Positions 607-18,454 of a DNA stretch of 35,032 nucleotides are shown here, piece after piece (position 1 is the stretch's first letter; every line of letters begins with the position of its first letter). The position numbers were made by a program, and so were the translations under genes. The stretch spans positions 1 to 35,032 of the forward strand of contig JAIOZF010000028.1 of the NCBI GenBank assembly GCA_021740745.1, given 5' to 3'. The notes beneath the pieces are model-generated. The model saw only the letters and a list, made by a program, of their open reading frames with translations, was not told the DNA's origin and did no database searches. Origin of the DNA: Crocinitomicaceae bacterium (GTDB lineage Bacteria; Bacteroidota; Bacteroidia; Flavobacteriales_D; Crocinitomicaceae).

Positions 607-1047
607 ATGCCTGATAAACCAGATTATTTATTTGATTTCGCTGTTCGCCATTCATGGCATCGAATTTCAAGAATGTATAACCAAAAAGCGGCTGAACATG
701 AAATGACCATGTCAATCGGATTCATTTTAATGAATGTAGATAAAGCCGGAACACCGAGCACTGCTCTTGGACCAAAAATGGGAATGGAACCAACATCTTT
801 GTCAAGAACACTCAAGACCATGGAAGAACGTGGTTTAATTTACCGTCAAGAGGTAGATCATGATAAACGAAAAGTGCTCATTTTTCTTACCCTTGAAGGA
901 ATTGAAAAACGAAAAATGGTTAAAAATTTCGTTCTAGGTTTTAACGACCGCATTCTAGCAAAAATCCCTAAAAGCAAAATGAAAATATTCTTTGAAGTCA
1001 TTGAAAAAGTGGACTTAATGATTGAGGAAGATTTTAAAAATTCATAA
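607..1047 (+). CDS. MarR-family transcriptional regulator
   Basis: A 146-residue protein with the MarR winged-helix layout: an N-terminal dimerisation helix, a recognition helix around residues 60-78 (PTSLSRTLKTMEERGLI) and a basic wing (DHDKRKVL, about 86-93). The family binds short palindromes as dimers and is commonly released by small ligands. It begins an apparent operon: fadN starts only 10 bases after its stop. Together with the shared palindrome at its own promoter and the fadE promoter, this points to an autoregulated repressor of beta-oxidation, functionally comparable to FadR although from another family. An acyl-CoA ligand is plausible but not shown. Confidence 0.9.
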   Translation: MPDKPDYLFDFAVRHSWHRISRMYNQKAAEHEMTMSIGFILMNVDKAGTPSTALGPKMGMEPTSLSRTLKTMEERGLIYRQEVDHDKRKVLIFLTLEGIEKRKMVKNFVLGFNDRILAKIPKSKMKIFFEVIEKVDLMIEEDFKNS

Positions 1048-1057
1048 TAATAAAAAA

Positions 1058-3463
1058 ATGAATAGACACATTAAAAAAGTCGCCATTTTAGGTTCCGGTG
1101 TAATGGGATCGCGCATCGCCTGTCACTTCGCTAATATTGGCTGTGAGGTAGTGTTATTGGATATTACTCCCAAAGAGCTCATGACTGATGAAACAAAAAA
1201 AGGCCTAACACTTGAGTCAAAAATAGTTAGAAACAGAATTGTTAATCAATCTTTGGAAGCTGCAGTTAAGTCAAATCCTTCACCGATATATCGAAAGTCA
1301 TTTGTTCAACGCATCGTAACTGGAAACTTCGATGACGATATGTCAAAGATTTCTAACTGTGACTGGATTATTGAAGTTGTTATTGAGCGTTTGGATATCA
1401 AAAAATTAGTTTTTGAGCAAGTTGAAAAATACAGAACACATGGAACGCTTATTACATCAAACACTTCTGGAATTCCAATTCACATGATGTTGGATGGTAG
1501 ATCAGATGATTTCAAAGCTCATTTCTGTGGAACACATTTTTTCAATCCTCCGCGCTATTTGCAATTATTGGAAATCATCCCTACTCCATCTACAAAATCT
1601 GAAGTTATTGACTTTTTGATGGATTATGGTTCTCGATACTTGGGTAAGAAAACAGTATTATGTAAAGATACACCTGCCTTCATTGCGAATCGTGTTGGAG
1701 TTTATTCAATCATGGCACTTTTCCATGCTGTAACGGAAATGGGATTGACAATTGAAGAAGTTGATAAATTGACTGGACCTGTTTTAGGACGACCAAAATC
1801 AGCGACGTTCAGAACATGTGATGTGGTTGGATTAGACACTTTAGTTCATGTTGCGAATGGGTTAAAAGCCAATTGTACAACTGATGAAGAAAAAGCATTG
1901 TTTGAACTGCCAGAATACATTTCTAAAATGGTTGAAAACAATTGGCTAGGATCTAAATCTGGTCAAGGATTTTACAAGAAAGTAAAAACAGCTGATGGCA
2001 AAAGTGAAATACATGCTTTAGACTTAAAAACCTTAGAATATCGTGCATCTGAAAAAGTAAAATTCGCTACGTTAGAAATGACAAAGCCAATCGATGACTT
2101 AAAACAGCGCACAAAAATGTTGTTCATGGCAATGGACAAAGCAGGTGAATTCTATCGTAAATTATTCGGTGGTTTATTTGCTTACGTATCAAATCGTTTA
2201 CCTGAAATAACAGATGATCTATACAAAATCGACGATGCGTTAAAAGCAGGATTTGGCTGGGAATTAGGTCCATTTGAAACATGGGACATCATTGGTTTAG
2301 ATCAAGGATTAAAATTAATAGCTGACAATAACAAAACAGTTGCTACTTGGATTTCAGAAATGAAAGCAGCTGGAATCACATCGTTCTACAAACTTGAGAA
2401 AGGCCAAAAAATGTACTATGACGTACAAATAAAAGCCTACAAAACGATACCAGGAACTGAGAACCTTGTTTTATTAGATGCCTTGCGTTCAGAAAATAAA
2501 GTTTGGGGCAATGCTGATACAACGCTTGTCAATCTTGGAGATGGAATTTTAAACTTAGAATTCCACACAAAAATGAATACAATTGGTGGTGGTGTTATCG
2601 AAGGAATTAACAAAGCAATCGACCTAGCAGAAAAAGAATACAAAGGTTTGGTGATTTCCAATACTGGTCAAAATTTCTCAGCTGGAGCGAATGTCGGAAT
2701 GATTTTCATGATGGCAATCGAACAAGATTTTGACGAATTGAATTTTGCAGTTAAAGCATTCCAAGACACCATGATGCGCATTCGCTATTCGAACATTCCT
2801 GTAATCGTTGCTCCTCACAATATGGCTCTTGGCGGTGGTTGTGAGATGTCAATGCATGCCGACAAAGTTGTTGCTCATGCTGAATTATATATGGGATTGG
2901 TTGAGTTTGGCGTTGGTTTAATTCCAGGTGGCGGTGGCTCCAAAGAATATGCAAAACGTTTATCTGAGGAATTGCACGAAGGTGATATAAAAATCAATCG
3001 TTTAAGAGAACGCTTCTTGACAATCGGTCAAGCAAAGGTTTCTACATCAGCCTATGAGGCCTTTGATTTAGGATACTTGCGAGAAGGAATCGATGAAGTA
3101 GTTGTGAGTCGTGATCACCAACTTGCACGCGCAAAAGCTGCGGCAATTGAATTTTCAAACAAAGGCTACATTGCTCCAAAACGTGAGAAAAACATTACAG
3201 TAATGGGACAAGAAGGTCTTGGAATTGTATACGTTGGTGCGAATTCAATGCTTTCTGGAAATTATATGTCAGACCACGATCGCGTGATTTCTGAAAAACT
3301 TGGTTTTGTGCTTTGTGGTGGTGATTTAAGTGAAAACACTGTTGTCTCTGAGCAATATTTATTGGATTTAGAACGCAAAGCATTTGTTGAACTTTGTGCA
3401 GAACGGAAAACGCTGGAGAGATTGGAAAGCTTGGTGAAAAATGGTAAAATCCTTCGGAATTAG
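1058..3463 (+). CDS. fadN: 3-hydroxyacyl-CoA dehydrogenase / enoyl-CoA hydratase (FadN type)
   Basis: A bifunctional beta-oxidation enzyme of 801 residues. The N-terminal NAD-binding fold opens with GSGVMG at residues 12-17; the dehydrogenase signature HFFNPPRYLQLLE lies near 160-172; a second dehydrogenase C-terminal-like segment follows. The C-terminal third (from about residue 490) is a crotonase domain with the oxyanion-hole segment SAGANVGM and the acidic active-site stretch GLVEFGVGLIPGGGG. This dehydrogenase-first order is that of B. subtilis FadN (YusL), the reverse of E. coli FadB/FadJ. An in-frame TTG at 1022 would overlap marR; the ATG at 1058 gives the family N-terminus and is preferred. 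The stop codon lies inside the left octamer array of the S23 cassette. Confidence 0.93.
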   Translation: MNRHIKKVAILGSGVMGSRIACHFANIGCEVVLLDITPKELMTDETKKGLTLESKIVRNRIVNQSLEAAVKSNPSPIYRKSFVQRIVTGNFDDDMSKISNCDWIIEVVIERLDIKKLVFEQVEKYRTHGTLITSNTSGIPIHMMLDGRSDDFKAHFCGTHFFNPPRYLQLLEIIPTPSTKSEVIDFLMDYGSRYLGKKTVLCKDTPAFIANRVGVYSIMALFHAVTEMGLTIEEVDKLTGPVLGRPKSATFRTCDVVGLDTLVHVANGLKANCTTDEEKALFELPEYISKMVENNWLGSKSGQGFYKKVKTADGKSEIHALDLKTLEYRASEKVKFATLEMTKPIDDLKQRTKMLFMAMDKAGEFYRKLFGGLFAYVSNRLPEITDDLYKIDDALKAGFGWELGPFETWDIIGLDQGLKLIADNNKTVATWISEMKAAGITSFYKLEKGQKMYYDVQIKAYKTIPGTENLVLLDALRSENKVWGNADTTLVNLGDGILNLEFHTKMNTIGGGVIEGINKAIDLAEKEYKGLVISNTGQNFSAGANVGMIFMMAIEQDFDELNFAVKAFQDTMMRIRYSNIPVIVAPHNMALGGGCEMSMHADKVVAHAELYMGLVEFGVGLIPGGGGSKEYAKRLSEELHEGDIKINRLRERFLTIGQAKVSTSAYEAFDLGYLREGIDEVVVSRDHQLARAKAAAIEFSNKGYIAPKREKNITVMGQEGLGIVYVGANSMLSGNYMSDHDRVISEKLGFVLCGGDLSENTVVSEQYLLDLERKAFVELCAERKTLERLESLVKNGKILRN

Positions 3464-3499
3464 ACTTTAGGAATGAAGGATATTAAGATTTTAAGACTT
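3460..3499 (-). repeat. Left octamer array of the S23 cassette (inverted)
   Basis: Read on the minus strand, 3499 to 3460 splits into five 8-base units: AGTCTTAA, AATCTTAA, TATCCTTC, ATTCCTAA, AGTCTAAT. The first two match the right-hand array closely; the rest are decayed but keep the 8-bp phase. The array starts within the last codon and stop of fadN. Its orientation is opposite to the array at 3905-3952, so the two bracket the four-helix-bundle gene as an inverted pair. Confidence 0.75.
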
Positions 3500-3522
3500 G
3501 AATGAATTAAAAAAATAGTGAT

Positions 3523-3882
3523 TTGAAGAAAGTACATAATTTTAGGGAATTGAAAATTTGGAAAGAATCATTGGTTCTAGTTAAGAATGTTTATCTTCTT
3601 ACTTCCAAATTACCAAAAGATGAAAAATTTGGATTAGTATCTCAAATTAATCGTTGTGCCGTTTCTATTCCTTCAAATATTGCCGAAGGTTCTGGTAGAA
3701 CTACTGAAAAAGAATTTCTTTATTTTTTAAATATTGCGATATCTTCTTCTTATGAACTTGAGACACAATTAATCTTAATTGAAGATATTTTCCATATTCA
3801 GACTAAGTCTATTTTAATGGAATTAGAAACACTGCAGAAGATGATCGGTGCTTTCAAGAGAATACTAAAAACAGAAAAGTAA
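3523..3882 (+). CDS. Four-helix-bundle protein, S23/23S-rRNA-IVP family
   Basis: A 119-residue helical protein with the family hallmarks: an N-terminal FRELKIWKESLVLV helix, the block RCAVSIPSNIAEGSGR (about 44-59) and FLYFLNIAISSSYELETQL (about 66-84). Relatives are encoded in 23S rRNA intervening sequences and as stand-alone genes; the Avd protein of diversity-generating retroelements has the same fold. Biochemical function is generally unknown. An in-frame TAA at 3508 leaves TTG at 3523 as the only sensible start. It separates fadN from fadA, which are functionally paired, and is flanked on both sides by inverted octamer arrays, so it looks like an inserted cassette. No reverse transcriptase or rRNA is near. 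Confidence 0.9.
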   Translation: MKKVHNFRELKIWKESLVLVKNVYLLTSKLPKDEKFGLVSQINRCAVSIPSNIAEGSGRTTEKEFLYFLNIAISSSYELETQLILIEDIFHIQTKSILMELETLQKMIGAFKRILKTEK

Positions 3883-3904
3883 ATAATATTGATGTTGAGG
3901 TTTG

Positions 3905-3952
3905 AGTCCTAAAGTCTTAAAATCCTAACATCTTAATATCTCAATATCTTAA
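3905..3952 (+). repeat. Right octamer array of the S23 cassette
   Basis: Six consecutive 8-base units: AGTCCTAA, AGTCTTAA, AATCCTAA, CATCTTAA, TATCTCAA, TATCTTAA (consensus NRTCYTAA). The array ends 4 bases before the fadA ATG. Its orientation is opposite to the left array; the left one matches it over about 21 bases if one 8-base unit is skipped. It occupies the whole space where a fadA leader would be. Confidence 0.88.
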
Positions 3953-3956
3953 CAAA

Positions 3957-5135
3957 ATGGGACAAAGAGCATACATAGTAGCAGGATTTCGATCTGCAGT
4001 TGGCAAAGCAGGTAAAGGAGGATTTCGTTTTTACAGACCTGATGATTTGGCAGCAGATGTTATTAAACATTTGATGGCATCTGTTCCTCAATTGGATAAA
4101 TTACGCGTTGACGATGTAATTGTAGGAAATGCAACTCCTGAAGCAGAACAAGGTTTGAACGTTGGCCGAATGATCTCATTAATGGGATTAGACACTGACA
4201 AAGTTCCTGGAATGACCGTGAACCGTTATTGTTCATCGGGATTAGAAACCATTGCAATTGCCACAGCAAAGATTGAAAGTGGAATGGCAGAATGTATCAT
4301 TGCTGGTGGTGTTGAATCTATGTCAGTGATGGCAATGGGTGGTTGGAGAATTGTTCCAAATCCAAAAGTGGGCAAAGAAAATCCGAATTGGTACTGGGGA
4401 ATGGGTCTAACCGCAGAAGCAGTTGCACATCAATTTAAAGTGAGCAGAGAAGAACAAGATGCATTTGCTGTTCATTCCCACAACAAAGCATTGGCAGCAA
4501 TTCAATCCGGTCGATTCAGAGATGATATTGTTCCAGTTGAAGTTGAACGTATCTTTTTGGACGCAAATGAAAAACGCCAAGTAGAAAAATACATCGTGGA
4601 TACAGATGAAGGTCCGCGAGTAAGTAGCGTTGAAGCGTTGGGGAATTTGAAACCAGTTTTCGCCAATGGTGGATCAGTTACAGCAGGAAACTCATCTCAA
4701 ACTTCTGATGGAGCAGCTTTCGTATTGGTAATGTCTGAACGAATGGTGAAAGAATTGAATCTGGAACCAATTGCGCGTTTGGCTTCGTATTCCGTTGTTG
4801 GAGTTGAACCAAGAATCATGGGTATTGGACCTGTTGATGCAATTCCAAAAGCAATTAAAGCTGCTGGATTAACATTAAACGATATTAACTTATTCGAATT
4901 AAATGAAGCTTTTGCCTCACAATCAATCGCTGTAATTCGTGAAACTGGATTGAATCCAGACATCGTCAATGTGAACGGTGGTGCCTTGGCGCTTGGACAT
5001 CCACTTGGTTGCACAGGTGCGAAACTTTCAGTTCAAATCATGAATGAATTGAAAAAACGTCAACAAAAATATGGTATTGTTACCATGTGTGTTGGCACAG
5101 GACAAGGAGCTGCAGGAGTTATAGAAATGATATAG
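3957..5135 (+). CDS. fadA: Acetyl-CoA C-acyltransferase (3-ketoacyl-CoA thiolase)
   Basis: A full-length (392-residue) thiolase performing the last, CoA-dependent cleavage of beta-oxidation. The acyl-accepting cysteine is C92 in NRYCSSGLE; the NEAFASQ motif, the catalytic histidine H348 in GHPLGCTG and the second cysteine C378 in MCVGTGQG are all present. It follows fadN in the same direction, though separated by the four-helix-bundle gene. A biosynthetic acetoacetyl-CoA thiolase cannot be fully excluded from sequence alone, but the fad context favours the degradative role. There is no obvious promoter of its own: the upstream 50 bases are octamer repeats. Confidence 0.93.
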   Translation: MGQRAYIVAGFRSAVGKAGKGGFRFYRPDDLAADVIKHLMASVPQLDKLRVDDVIVGNATPEAEQGLNVGRMISLMGLDTDKVPGMTVNRYCSSGLETIAIATAKIESGMAECIIAGGVESMSVMAMGGWRIVPNPKVGKENPNWYWGMGLTAEAVAHQFKVSREEQDAFAVHSHNKALAAIQSGRFRDDIVPVEVERIFLDANEKRQVEKYIVDTDEGPRVSSVEALGNLKPVFANGGSVTAGNSSQTSDGAAFVLVMSERMVKELNLEPIARLASYSVVGVEPRIMGIGPVDAIPKAIKAAGLTLNDINLFELNEAFASQSIAVIRETGLNPDIVNVNGGALALGHPLGCTGAKLSVQIMNELKKRQQKYGIVTMCVGTGQGAAGVIEMI

Positions 5136-14210: not shown

Positions 14211-16727
14211 ATGAAAAAACTGTATCAATTTGTACTCTTGAGCTTTTTAGCTTTGCCTTTTACTGGAAAGTCACAAAATTATCTCGGTGTTCACAGTAGC
14301 AACTATGCAGGTGTTATGGGAACTGATCTTCAGCCAGCAAGCTTCGTGGATAGCCGTTTTTTAGTTGACGTGAACCTCTTCAGTTTCAATTTTAACTTTT
14401 ATCAAAACGCAGCTTCTTTTGATACTCGCGACATGCCAAAATGGTGGACAAAATCATTTTTGGATACCAGCATTTATAATTCGTGGGCAAAACCAGATTC
14501 AACTTTTGAAGACAAGTATATCATTCGTAATTACAATAAAAATACTTCGAAGACTTTAGGATTTTACAATAACATTCAATTGGATGTATTGAATTTTATG
14601 TTTCACATAAATCCTAAAATAGCAGTTGGTTTTTCAGGAAAAATGAGATCAATCACAAATATTGATCGAATTGACCCTAAATTAGCTGTACTTGCTGAAA
14701 ATGCTCTTGACTATCCAGATTTATGGAATATTAAATTGAATAATGAGTTACTTAGTTTTAACCATTTATCATGGATGGAATATGGAATAAACTACGCACA
14801 GGTTTTGAAAGATGACAACGAGCACTTCATGAAGGCTGGTGTTAGAGCGAAATGGCTTTCTGGGCTTGTTGCTGCATACATGTATACAGATAACATCGCT
14901 TATGATCTTAAGAATTCAGATACTTCATTTTCAATGCAAGGCGATTTTGATTATGGTTATTCCGGTAATATTGACGGATACGCAGATGGATCAACAACAG
15001 GCTTTCCGAAAAGTGCTTCTAAATTTGGTTTAGGTTTAGATTTAGGTTTCGTTTATGAATGGAGACCTGATTGGAAAGAATATAAATACGACATGGATGG
15101 TGAAACTAATCTATGGAGAAAAGATCAGGAGAAATACAAAATGCGTGTTGGTGCGTCTATTGTTGATATCGGTGGAATGAAATTTCAAAAGGGCGGTTTG
15201 TCAAGAAACTTCTCTATTAACTCAACAAATCCGATGGATTTGAACATGTTTAACAGTGATACTTCATTAGTCGATTTTGATGGAACGATTGACAGTTTAA
15301 TTCAAACAGGAACAGGTTGGACATCGGGTGAGAACACTGCTTCTACTTTCTTCATGAATACGCCAACTGCACTAAGCCTGCAATTTGACTACCATATCTG
15401 GAAATGGTTTTATGTAAATGCAACTGGAATGTTAAATATGTTGTCGAAAAAGAACAGTAGTAAAGTTCATGTTGCCAATCAAATTTCAGTTACTCCAAGT
15501 TTCGACCACCCTTGGTTCGGATTACATTTACCACTTTCATATAATAACTACTCAGGATTCAAAGCTGGTGTTGCAACTCGTCTAGGTCCATTAACAGTCG
15601 GTATGACAGATTTCAGAACACTTTTTGCTGCTGGTAAAGTGCGTGGAGCGGAATTCTATGTTGGTTTGCGCGTTCCTGTATTATATTCACATCCAAGTGA
15701 TATTGATGGTGATAAAGTATCTGATAAAGTAGATGAGTGCCTAGTTGTTCCGGGCGTTTGGGATTTCAAAGGATGTCCTGATACAGATCGTGATGGAATT
15801 AAAGACTTAGAAGACCTTTGCCCTGAAGAAGCAGGTTTAGCGAAATTCAACGGTTGTCCAGATAAAGATAACGATGGTATTCCTGACAAAGACGATGCTT
15901 GTCCTGAATTACCAGGTGAAGCTCAATACAAAGGTTGTCCAGATACTGATGGTGATGGTGTAATAGATCCTAAAGATGATTGTCCAAATGTTGCAGGTTT
16001 AGTGGCATTTAATGGTTGTCCTGATACGGATGGTGATGGAATTATCGACGGTGAGGATGCTTGTCCAGATGTTGCTGGTCCACTAATTTATGATGGATGT
16101 CCAGATACTGATAATGACGGAGTTCTTGACTTCCTTGATGCGTGTGTAACTGTTTCAGGTCCTGCAGAAAACAATGGTTGTCCTTGGCCTGATACTGATG
16201 GTGATGGTTTATTGGACAAAGATGATGAATGTCCATCTCTTGCTGGACCAATAAAAAATAAAGGTTGTCCATATATCGATACAGACAATGATGGCGTATT
16301 AGATAAAGACGATGATTGTCCATCTACTCCGGGTCCAATAACCAACAAAGGATGTCCAGAAATTTCTAAAGAAGTTGAAGAAATCTTAAAAATGGCATTT
16401 GACAATCTAGAGTTTGAAACAGGAAAAGATATTATCAAAGCTGTTTCTCTTCCTTCATTGACAGAACTTGCTGAGGTATTAGCTAAAAAACCAGAATGGA
16501 GATTGCAAATCACTGGTCACACAGATAATGTAGGTGACGATCAGAAGAATATGATTCTTTCTAAGAAACGTGCTGAGGCAGTTAAGAACTTCATGGTTTA
16601 TAAAGGAATTGCTGCAGATAGATTGTTCACACTTTATTTTGGTGAGACAATGCCTGTAGCGCCAAATGATACGCCAGAAGGACGTCAGAAAAACAGACGT
16701 GTTGAAATGAAGATTATCTTTAAATAA
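14211..16727 (+). CDS. DUF5723-like/TSP3/OmpA outer-membrane protein
   Basis: An 838-residue envelope protein in three parts. After a signal peptide (about 21 residues, ending near GKSQ) comes a region of about 470 residues with alternating aromatic strands, like the DUF5723 group of Bacteroidota outer-membrane barrels. Residues about 496-718 hold eight thrombospondin type-3 calcium-binding repeats of the D-x-D-x-D-G form, each with paired cysteines and 24-27 residues long. The C-terminal 110 residues are an OmpA/MotB peptidoglycan-binding domain (GHTDNVGD, then NMILSKKRAEAV). It should span the outer membrane, with the TSP3 stalk and OmpA domain reaching the peptidoglycan. A strong terminator follows. 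Confidence 0.88.
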   Translation: MKKLYQFVLLSFLALPFTGKSQNYLGVHSSNYAGVMGTDLQPASFVDSRFLVDVNLFSFNFNFYQNAASFDTRDMPKWWTKSFLDTSIYNSWAKPDSTFEDKYIIRNYNKNTSKTLGFYNNIQLDVLNFMFHINPKIAVGFSGKMRSITNIDRIDPKLAVLAENALDYPDLWNIKLNNELLSFNHLSWMEYGINYAQVLKDDNEHFMKAGVRAKWLSGLVAAYMYTDNIAYDLKNSDTSFSMQGDFDYGYSGNIDGYADGSTTGFPKSASKFGLGLDLGFVYEWRPDWKEYKYDMDGETNLWRKDQEKYKMRVGASIVDIGGMKFQKGGLSRNFSINSTNPMDLNMFNSDTSLVDFDGTIDSLIQTGTGWTSGENTASTFFMNTPTALSLQFDYHIWKWFYVNATGMLNMLSKKNSSKVHVANQISVTPSFDHPWFGLHLPLSYNNYSGFKAGVATRLGPLTVGMTDFRTLFAAGKVRGAEFYVGLRVPVLYSHPSDIDGDKVSDKVDECLVVPGVWDFKGCPDTDRDGIKDLEDLCPEEAGLAKFNGCPDKDNDGIPDKDDACPELPGEAQYKGCPDTDGDGVIDPKDDCPNVAGLVAFNGCPDTDGDGIIDGEDACPDVAGPLIYDGCPDTDNDGVLDFLDACVTVSGPAENNGCPWPDTDGDGLLDKDDECPSLAGPIKNKGCPYIDTDNDGVLDKDDDCPSTPGPITNKGCPEISKEVEEILKMAFDNLEFETGKDIIKAVSLPSLTELAEVLAKKPEWRLQITGHTDNVGDDQKNMILSKKRAEAVKNFMVYKGIAADRLFTLYFGETMPVAPNDTPEGRQKNRRVEMKIIFK

Positions 16728-16795: not shown

Positions 16796-18400
16796 ATGAT
16801 TCAACTCGACAAAAAACATCGTTACGGTTTATCGATTCTTTCAGGACTCATTATGACCGTTTCATTTCCATATACAGGAAGTTTAACACCTTTGGTTTTT
16901 GTTAGTTGGATACCACTTTTGATTTTGGAGGATTATATCACTAGAAAGAATTATCGATCCGGGAAAATATTTTTGCATGCTTATATCGCCTTCCTCGTTT
17001 ATAATATTGGGACAACTTGGTGGATTTGGAATGCCAGCCTAAATGGAGCCATTGGTGCATTTGTTTTAAACGCATTGCTGATGACATTTGCTTTTTTTGC
17101 TTATCACTTAACTAAGAAATATGTCGGTAAAAAAGAAGGATATTTATCACTTTTTTTCTTTTGGATAGCTTTTGAATATTTGCACTATCATTGGGAACTA
17201 TCTTGGCCTTGGTTGAGTTTAGGAAACACGTTTTCAATAGTTCCATCTTGGGTTCAGTGGTATTCTTACACAGGTACACTCGGCGGTACATTTTGGGTCT
17301 TATTTTTAAATGTTTTAGGATTTAGAATTATTCAAAATGTCTTTATTAAAAAAGAAACTTGGCGTATTCAAACCCCACTTTTATGGACCTTTGGTTTTTT
17401 AATATTGATTCCGATTGGTATCTCACTATCGAGCTATTATAGATACACAGAGGAGAAAAACCCTGTTGAAGTAATTGTTGTTCAGCCTAACATTGATCCT
17501 TACAATGAAAAATTTACAGGTCCGCTTGAAACACAATTGGCTAAAATCACTGACTTAGCGACTTCAAAAGTTACTGCAAAAACAAAATTCGTTATTGCTC
17601 CTGAGACAGCCATAAGTCAAGGCTTTTATGAAGAAGATGTGAATCAAGTATTTGCATTAGAGTATTTAAATGAAAAATTAGAGCAATGGAAAACACCCCA
17701 TTTATTCATAGGAGCTTCTACCGCAAAAATGTTTGAAAAACCGAATTCATTTGCATCTCGACCAATGATTGGTGGGCCTGGTTTTGTAGAATATTATAAT
17801 ACTTCAATGTTGATGAGTCAACAAAACGAAATTTATTTTATTCATAAATCCAAGTTGGTTTTAGGTGTTGAAAAACTTCCTTTTGCCTCAATTTTTCCTT
17901 TTTTAGAGAAACTTTCCATTGAAAATGGTGGCACAACAGGTACTCTTGGAGTGGAAAAAGAATCGAAAGTTTTGACCACTAATGAATTGACCTTTGCGCC
18001 AATGATTTGTTATGAATCTATTTATGGTGAAATGCTAGCCGAGCAATGCCGAAAAGGGGCGCAAGCACTTTTTGTAATTACGAATGATGGTTGGTGGGGA
18101 GATACGCCTGGTTACAAACAGCATATGAGTTTTTCGCGCCTTAGAGCAATAGAAAGTCGCAGATCAGTAGCAAGATCAGCCAATACGGGGATTAGTTGTA
18201 TCATAAATCAACGAGGAGATGTTATTCAGCAATTGGGTTGGTGGAAAGCTGGGGCTTTGCGCGGCAATATCAACAAGAACGATGAAATCACTTTTTACAG
18301 CACGTATGGCGATGTGATCGGGCGTTCATTTACATTTGTAAGCGCCTTGCTTTTGCTCCTTACGTTTGTTAAGTTTTTTAAGAAAAAATACATTCGATAA
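16796..18400 (+). CDS. lnt: Apolipoprotein N-acyltransferase
   Basis: A 534-residue inner-membrane enzyme adding the third acyl chain to the N-terminal cysteine of lipoproteins. About six hydrophobic segments occupy residues 10-215, with a nitrilase-like periplasmic domain from about 224 to 500. The likely catalytic triad is Glu270 (APET), Lys351 (HKSKL) and Cys405 (MICYESIYGE). The loop usually written LVPFGE reads LVLGVE here (354-359), keeping the glutamate. A last hydrophobic helix precedes a Lys/Arg-rich end. Its last two sense codons and stop (ATT CGA TAA) form the first unit of an octamer array. Confidence 0.93.
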   Translation: MIQLDKKHRYGLSILSGLIMTVSFPYTGSLTPLVFVSWIPLLILEDYITRKNYRSGKIFLHAYIAFLVYNIGTTWWIWNASLNGAIGAFVLNALLMTFAFFAYHLTKKYVGKKEGYLSLFFFWIAFEYLHYHWELSWPWLSLGNTFSIVPSWVQWYSYTGTLGGTFWVLFLNVLGFRIIQNVFIKKETWRIQTPLLWTFGFLILIPIGISLSSYYRYTEEKNPVEVIVVQPNIDPYNEKFTGPLETQLAKITDLATSKVTAKTKFVIAPETAISQGFYEEDVNQVFALEYLNEKLEQWKTPHLFIGASTAKMFEKPNSFASRPMIGGPGFVEYYNTSMLMSQQNEIYFIHKSKLVLGVEKLPFASIFPFLEKLSIENGGTTGTLGVEKESKVLTTNELTFAPMICYESIYGEMLAEQCRKGAQALFVITNDGWWGDTPGYKQHMSFSRLRAIESRRSVARSANTGISCIINQRGDVIQQLGWWKAGALRGNINKNDEITFYSTYGDVIGRSFTFVSALLLLLTFVKFFKKKYIR

Positions 18401-18454
18401 TTCGATAATTCGATAATTCGATAATTCGATAATTCGATAATTCGATAATTCGAT
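18392..18454. repeat. Octamer tandem array (ATTCGATA x 7.9)
   Basis: Sixty-three bases of perfect 8-bp repeats start in the final two codons of lnt and run into the intergenic region. ATTCGATA differs in sequence from the TGTCTTAA family but has the same unit length. Perfect identity suggests recent slippage expansion. Confidence 0.97.

Follow-up and report, generated by a model that had tools for sequence, protein, structure and literature searches.

Why should a gene for an S23 protein, a member of the Pfam family 23S_rRNA_IVP (PF05635), lie between two protein-coding genes, and why should it be framed there by short repeats in opposite orientations? This question is raised by a 35,032-nucleotide stretch of DNA (the window) from a Crocinitomicaceae bacterium (contig JAIOZF010000028.1 of assembly GCA_021740745.1), in which such a gene separates fadN from fadA. 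An earlier note, made from the sequence alone, had described the gene and the inverted, oppositely oriented 8-bp arrays on its two sides, and that observation holds. The segment is probably a hairpin cassette of the intervening sequence (IVS) type lodged in a protein operon, and would then be the same kind of element as the IVSs of 23S rRNA genes; we assign this reading a probability of roughly 0.62.

Under this reading, the S23 gene would occupy the loop of a hairpin, and the inverted arrays of 7- or 8-bp units would make up the two strands of its stem. These arms might pair in the operon transcript, with the S23 open reading frame (ORF) looping out or being cut by RNase III as in rRNA. Such pairing would hold the fadN stop and the fadA start close together, and the insert could therefore be tolerated in housekeeping operons. 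The arms might be kept matched mainly because one arm templates the other when the DNA is replicated (templated correction of imperfect palindromes), while slippage would create the short units. The S23 protein probably binds the hairpin, either as RNA or as DNA.

The insert at the fadN-fadA junction

The insert (3464-3956) is discrete, with the fadN stop codon (TAG, 3461-3463) at its left edge and the fadA ATG at its right edge; the name fadN is taken from the earlier note, where it was based on gene order. The S23 gene is the only ORF of at least 80 amino acids inside it, which leaves no other ORF of that size as a transposase or recombinase. Its product scores 115.5 bits against PF05635, for which the curated cut-off is 33.8, and thus belongs to the family; the ORF begins with TTG, and the start codon is uncertain. 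The arms are 90% complementary over 21 nt (3479-3499 with 3912-3932) and 73% complementary over a longer pairing of 37 nt (3462-3498 with 3905-3941). Relative to dinucleotide shuffles, the inverted match of the spacers has a p value of about 0.0015 in a gapped comparison (2000 shuffles) and 0.002 in an ungapped one (500 shuffles), and period 8 is likewise enriched in each flank (Table 1). Run at score 30, the program TRF detected the right array (3907-3952, periods 8 and 16) and missed the left one. Taken alone, then, the window locus is significant but modest, and the strength of the case comes from the pattern at other loci.

Related genomes provide both occupied and empty versions of this junction. 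Thirty genomes, including the source genome, were searched with a C-terminal piece of FadN, and the junction with fadA was readable at 20 loci, including that of the window. An S23 gene with flanking repeats is present at eight of these and was not found at the other 12. In three genomes of the same genus (G010, G012 and G014), only nine bases, stop codon included, lie between the aligned end of FadN and the fadA ATG, and there is no array. The cassette is present in G002, G003, G007, G008 and G011, and also in G015, where the locus is on a split contig (L018). Within the genus, the S23 gene and the arrays are therefore present or absent together. Other junctions without S23 are longer, including one in G004 (L042) with a 109-base stretch that carries a different inverted repeat, and one (L051) with 683 bases between the genes.

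The relatives that lack the whole segment bear out the view of the earlier note that the gene and both arrays constitute one cassette, as does the far greater richness of S23 flanks in inverted 7- or 8-bp arrays described below. Its suggestion that the cassette targets octamer repeats finds no support, because the three tight empty sites of the same genus hold no array. The cassette may generate such repeats, the other possibility that the note had raised. Searches for further features gave little: an Rfam search of positions 3000-4400 yielded a single sub-threshold chance match, a PADLOC scan for anti-phage defence returned no families, and phage records searched with one S23 query at 1e-5 gave no match.

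Table 1. Features of the fadN-fadA junction in window coordinates; p values for period 8 are relative to dinucleotide shuffles.
Feature	Position	Strand	Basis
fadN-like 3-hydroxyacyl-CoA dehydrogenase / enoyl-CoA hydratase	1022..3463	+	Pfam 3HCDH_N, 3HCDH, ECH_1; ORF
Left arm, degenerate octamers (GAYNTTAA-like), G/A-rich	3462..3499	+	inverted repeats I1-I3; period-8 p 0.01
S23/IVP protein gene, 119 aa	3523..3882	+	PF05635 E 1.7e-33
Right arm, degenerate octamers, opposite orientation, C/T-rich	3905..3952	+	inverted repeats; TRF; period-8 p 0.002
Whole cassette (arm - S23 - arm), missing as a unit in G010, G012, G014	3464..3956	+	junction comparison
fadA-like acetyl-CoA acyltransferase (thiolase)	3957..5135	+	Pfam Thiolase_N, Thiolase_C

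Inverted arms around S23 genes elsewhere

The family is common: of 296 genomes that were sampled from the phylum, 232 have a match to PF05635. S23 genes with matched inverted arms also recur across phyla. From the high-scoring part of the PF05635 list, 40 large regions (up to 20 kb) and 60 smaller ones were hand-picked, a choice that favours canonical S23 genes. In the 40 large regions, the median inverted score is 20 for 43 S23 genes versus 13 for the 618 ORFs that served as controls (Mann-Whitney p 5e-13). At a strict ungapped threshold, inverted flanks occur at 24 of the 43 S23 genes versus 15 of the 618 controls, and at 5 of 213 controls of 80-200 aa.

The converse search, a scan of the same 40 regions for inverted pairs that took no account of S23, points to the same association. 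Pairs spaced 350-600 bp apart with arrays of the 7/8 type in both arms enclose an S23 gene in 19 of 20 cases, whereas pairs at this spacing without arrays do so in 0 of 17. An S23 gene is also enclosed by 11 of 13 pairs with an array in one arm only and by 5 of 8 pairs that have arrays in both arms but a different spacing. Since the regions were chosen for holding S23 genes, these counts tell what such pairs enclose there rather than how common they are genome-wide. In one region (L112:525-980), an inverted pair of 8-bp arrays has no recognisable S23 gene inside and might be an S23-less cassette.

Swapping flanks between loci provides a second control. For the swaps among clusters and for the counts of collinearity, polarity, mismatches and arm ends given below, one representative was taken per 85% cluster, and S23 matches covering fewer than 70 profile positions were dropped; the loci from the fadN search (L039-L068) were left out of the swap percentiles and of the period counts. 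Among 140 clusters, which represent 179 S23 genes, 75 exceed the 95th percentile of swapped flanks and 45 exceed the 99th, and 66 pass the ungapped threshold versus 0.7% of swapped flanks. In named genomes, 53 of 86 S23 genes (80 loci) pass versus 4.8% of swaps, a figure that is raised because some of those loci are homologous.

The source genome (G000) itself has eight PF05635 matches, seven of which remain once the length filter has removed L008. The named relatives of its S23 would place this genome in Bacteroidota, near Flavobacteriales. At six of the seven loci, no more than one in about 60 swapped flanks equals the inverted match of the locus's own flanks; at the seventh (L001), 5 of 60 do. 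The repeat unit differs among these loci, being 7 bp in L004 and 8 bp in L003 and L006, and each locus has a unit of its own, so that NRTCYTAA, which the earlier note had given as the unit, is not a fixed one. A separate type is represented by L007, in which the S23 gene lies between near-identical terminator-like hairpins on both sides and has no octamers.

The arms have a consistent anatomy. Ungapped arms together with both neighbours are available at 65 loci. In 53 of these, no more than 20 bp separate the start of the left arm from the end of the upstream gene; in 47, the right arm stops equally close to the downstream gene; and 42 loci show both, as would be expected if the arms are the termini of a sequence inserted into a tight spacer. 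The best period is most often 7 (57 flanks), followed by 14 (24) and 8 (18). When the arms are oriented by the S23 gene, 109 of 113 clusters have a G-rich left arm, as do all eight arm-bearing loci where S23 opposes both neighbours. The polarity is therefore a property of the element rather than of the host operon. Furthermore, the two arms are collinear beyond their shared motif: shuffling the units lowers the match (Fisher p 1e-28), and 51% of 69 loci reach p <=0.05 singly, while the other half do not.

The same anatomy occurs in a 23S rRNA gene. A plasmid search with an S23 protein returned 25 records, mostly cyanobacterial, and nine of the 11 loci examined reach an arm score of 14 (all except L310 and L312), a raw count made without a swap control. 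Their arms contain heptamers such as GGGAACA / TGTTCCC. At one locus collected (L319, Azospirillum lipoferum 4B), the S23 gene lies within a 23S rRNA gene (Rfam LSU, large subunit) and is bounded by inverted heptamer arms whose polarity is the same; in its predicted fold (z -10), the arms form the outer stem.

Upkeep of the arms and competing explanations

How the arms stay matched can be approached by pairing one arm with the opposite arm of a homologous cassette. For S23 genes less than 70% identical at the same site, such cross-species matches average 12.4 and 13.7, close to the chance level given by swapped flanks of unrelated loci (median 12), versus 17.9 and 18.6 for own arms. Between 70 and 98% identity the difference is small (own 20.1, cross 18.4). 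Although same-site pairs, here and in the identity correlation below, are not independent, these values suggest that, over longer times, the arms change in sequence but remain complementary. Purifying selection acts on the S23 gene itself, as judged from nonsynonymous and synonymous divergence (dN/dS) between close orthologues of 0.018/0.144 (~0.12), 0.059/0.132 (~0.44) and 0.059/0.234 (~0.25).

Several observations weigh against the hairpin cassette as described. Nearly half of the S23 clusters fall below the arm threshold, which is reached by 113 of 217 in a larger set. For the closest relatives of the window cassette, own arms match no better than swapped ones (23.5 vs 23.5 for L003-L010, 15 vs 20 for L003-L012). 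The minimum free energy structure of the window cassette has the arms as its outer stem, but its z score is -1.73 and 7 of 100 shuffles fold as well. Arrays of these periods also occur without an S23 gene within 150 bp (38 of 62). On the rRNA side, one insert was examined, L319, the only S23 locus in the collected set that matches rRNA pieces. Finally, sense-strand arm mismatches comprise 87 G.U versus 110 A.C (p 0.12), and two overlapping data sets likewise lack a G.U excess (140 vs 178 and 51 vs 70).

The last of these points bears also on a possible, if not favoured, explanation in which the RNA stem itself is selected. The insert would then be a processed mRNA intervening sequence, with compensatory changes that keep the arms paired for RNase III. 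Such processing is known for an rRNA IVS (PMC4990558), the arms form the outer stem in folds, and S23 is co-oriented with both neighbours at 108 of 136 loci versus 361 of 645 background triples (four of the 140 clusters, which do not have two callable neighbours, are omitted). Selection on an RNA stem should nevertheless make G.U outnumber A.C, and the lack of an excess favours copying between the arms at the DNA level; arms and polarity also persist where S23 opposes both neighbours. Judged from these sequence patterns, DNA-level copying would be the more likely upkeep of the match than plain selection on an RNA stem, and RNA processing would be the putative function of the stem, by analogy with rRNA.

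A second explanation, which we regard as doubtful, makes the arms the DNA terminal repeats of a non-autonomous mobile element that is acted on by S23 and an unknown enzyme. The absence of the arm-bearing insert as a unit from empty sites fits this explanation, as do the 91 distinct neighbour pairs among the 179 loci and the succession of three to four S23 cassettes from one gene junction to the next within a single region in L103, L104, L153 and L154. By eye, the neighbours in that region resemble a phenylacetate-type operon. On the other hand, a tree of 101 S23 rows at 16 shared downstream genes requires only 19 site changes where the minimum is 15, so that jumps look rare; in this tree, which has no shuffled control, sites are told apart solely by the cluster of the downstream gene, and the rows include close orthologues. 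For same-site pairs pooled, S23 identity tracks neighbour identity (rho 0.74 and 0.78). Within seven large sites, the downstream correlation is strong in three (0.54, 0.81 and 0.92) and weak in four (0.25, 0.06, 0.10 and 0.20), which leaves room for exchange. The tree, the correlation and the cross-species arm matches were made without L009 and L032, which duplicate L003 and L001. No clear target-site duplication is seen by eye at the fadN-fadA junction, and arms diverge fast.

Vertical descent of S23 at its sites is thus only partly supported. These data fit an element that stays at its sites for long periods and is sometimes lost, or one that spreads when recombination occurs through the genes on either side, better than one that jumps frequently. 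Frequent transposition was considered and set aside as unsupported and weakened by the tree, and the mobility that the earlier note had thought possible is doubtful as a frequent process, because S23 lineages mostly follow insertion sites.

It is improbable that the arrays are independent, iteron-like binding sites for S23 that share a motif without being copies of each other: their units are degenerate and locus-specific and their polarity follows S23, as such sites might, but the arms are collinear beyond unit content. That S23 genes merely fall by chance into spacers rich in ordinary repeats is very improbable, since control genes and swapped flanks rarely match, which refutes this explanation for the inverted pairing, and since 24 of the 62 arrays lie within 150 bp of an S23 gene, in what is by our own reckoning about 29 of 782 kb, even though the other 38 and two array sites without S23 found by TRF in the window itself speak for it. 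The earlier note would have given up its idea if arrays were equally common away from S23 genes; arrays do occur there, but are sparser than beside S23.

One of the two array sites in the window is a perfect (AATGTCTT)13.8 array at positions 1-110, which ends 9 bp before a thioesterase gene. Another contig (C86), which bears the gene that precedes the thioesterase gene in relatives, ends in the same (AATGTCTT)n array in the same orientation. No (AATGTCTT)n array was shown by the stretches upstream of the thioesterase gene at 19 relative loci. The possibility that the contig end truncates a second S23 cassette, with this array as its right arm, was rejected because of the orientation at the end of C86 and because S23 was seen upstream at 0 of the 19 relative loci. 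The array stands as a solo one, with no inverted partner in the readable sequence and with the stretch between the contigs unread. Elsewhere in the window, a perfect (ATTCGATA)7.9 array (18392-18454) lies at a gene end without S23, and an 81-bp tandem repeat with 3.5 copies (15765-16044) lies within a large ORF.

Comparison with known systems

Small genes framed by inverted repeats in spacers are known from elements of the REP/RAYT type (repetitive extragenic palindromes and their associated tyrosine transposases). Unlike these, the S23 cassette has no transposase, and its repeat unit varies among loci. Avd of diversity-generating retroelements presumably shares the fold class of S23, as the earlier note held. 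A profile search of solved structures with the window S23 protein matched only S23 structures (2gsc and 2rld) and did not match Avd by sequence, and, unlike the context of Avd, no reverse transcriptase is found among the five genes scanned near the window S23 gene.

Some likeness is also offered by arrays of 7-bp units that lie between operon genes or before start codons, some of which can form hairpins. Three papers describe cyanobacterial short tandemly repeated repetitive (STRR) hairpins of 7-bp units between hupS and hupL and before hoxW, with function not known (PMC2670836), heptamer arrays of GGGAATC in Xanthomonas and GGGGA(C/T)T in Nostoc (PMC4692102), and TAACTGA arrays before start codons in Beggiatoaceae (PMC4679880). 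STRR-type arrays mostly have a fixed unit, unlike the S23 cassettes. The unit at the window locus is 8 bp and not the 7 bp of STRRs, although period 7 is the commonest in the wider S23 set. The term S23 is absent from the accessible text of PMC4692102 and PMC4679880, and the corresponding excerpts of PMC6749651, PMC8700078 and PMC5041132 contain nothing on S23 and arrays. Among the matches listed from the open-licence literature, no title or abstract beginning joins operon S23 genes with such arrays. The heptamer arrays of the literature may be parts of S23 cassettes. Heptamer-armed S23 genes are also seen in cyanobacterial CRISPR operons (L311, L316 and L318; cas6-S23-cas4 and cas10-S23-cmr3), and L311 has long same-direction arrays on both sides as well.

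A broader and speculative proposal, which we consider unlikely, would unite rRNA IVSs, the "four helix bundle protein" genes of bacterial operons and some of the heptamer arrays known from cyanobacteria, Xanthomonas, Beggiatoaceae and Bacteroidota in one class of selfish hairpin cassettes. The S23 protein might serve as the maintenance protein of this class by acting on the hairpin to bring about the copying of one arm onto the other. Such copying would both make the short tandem units and keep the arms matched as their sequence changes. Solo arrays might be remains or precursors of such cassettes.

The main reading, that of a cassette in a protein operon, would join repeat puzzles that were earlier described separately. 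It suggests that many of the genes labelled "four helix bundle protein" are cargo of such cassettes rather than true members of the operons around them. S23 proteins have solved structures, and the defined ends, polarity and empty sites of the cassette open the way to concrete tests.

The nearest known system is the 23S rRNA IVS. As described in PMC4990558, the Coxiella element has a 28-bp terminal stem, is excised by RNase III and carries an S23 ORF, with tandem heptamers ahead of the S23 start whose copy number varies among strains. The window cassette differs from such elements in its position between fadN and fadA, two protein genes, and not in a helix of 23S rRNA, and in its 8-bp unit, and any IVS-type excision of it would be putative. 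It resembles them in its S23 ORF, its size of about 0.45 kb and its complementary termini, which can pair into a stem that encloses the ORF. Short tandem repeats close to the ORF, which could be regarded as an informal trait of IVSs, are present at the window locus, in L319 and, on the evidence of the same paper, in the Coxiella IVS, where, as in L319, they are heptamers. These parallels suggest that the rRNA IVS might be one particular form of an insert that is widespread in protein operons.

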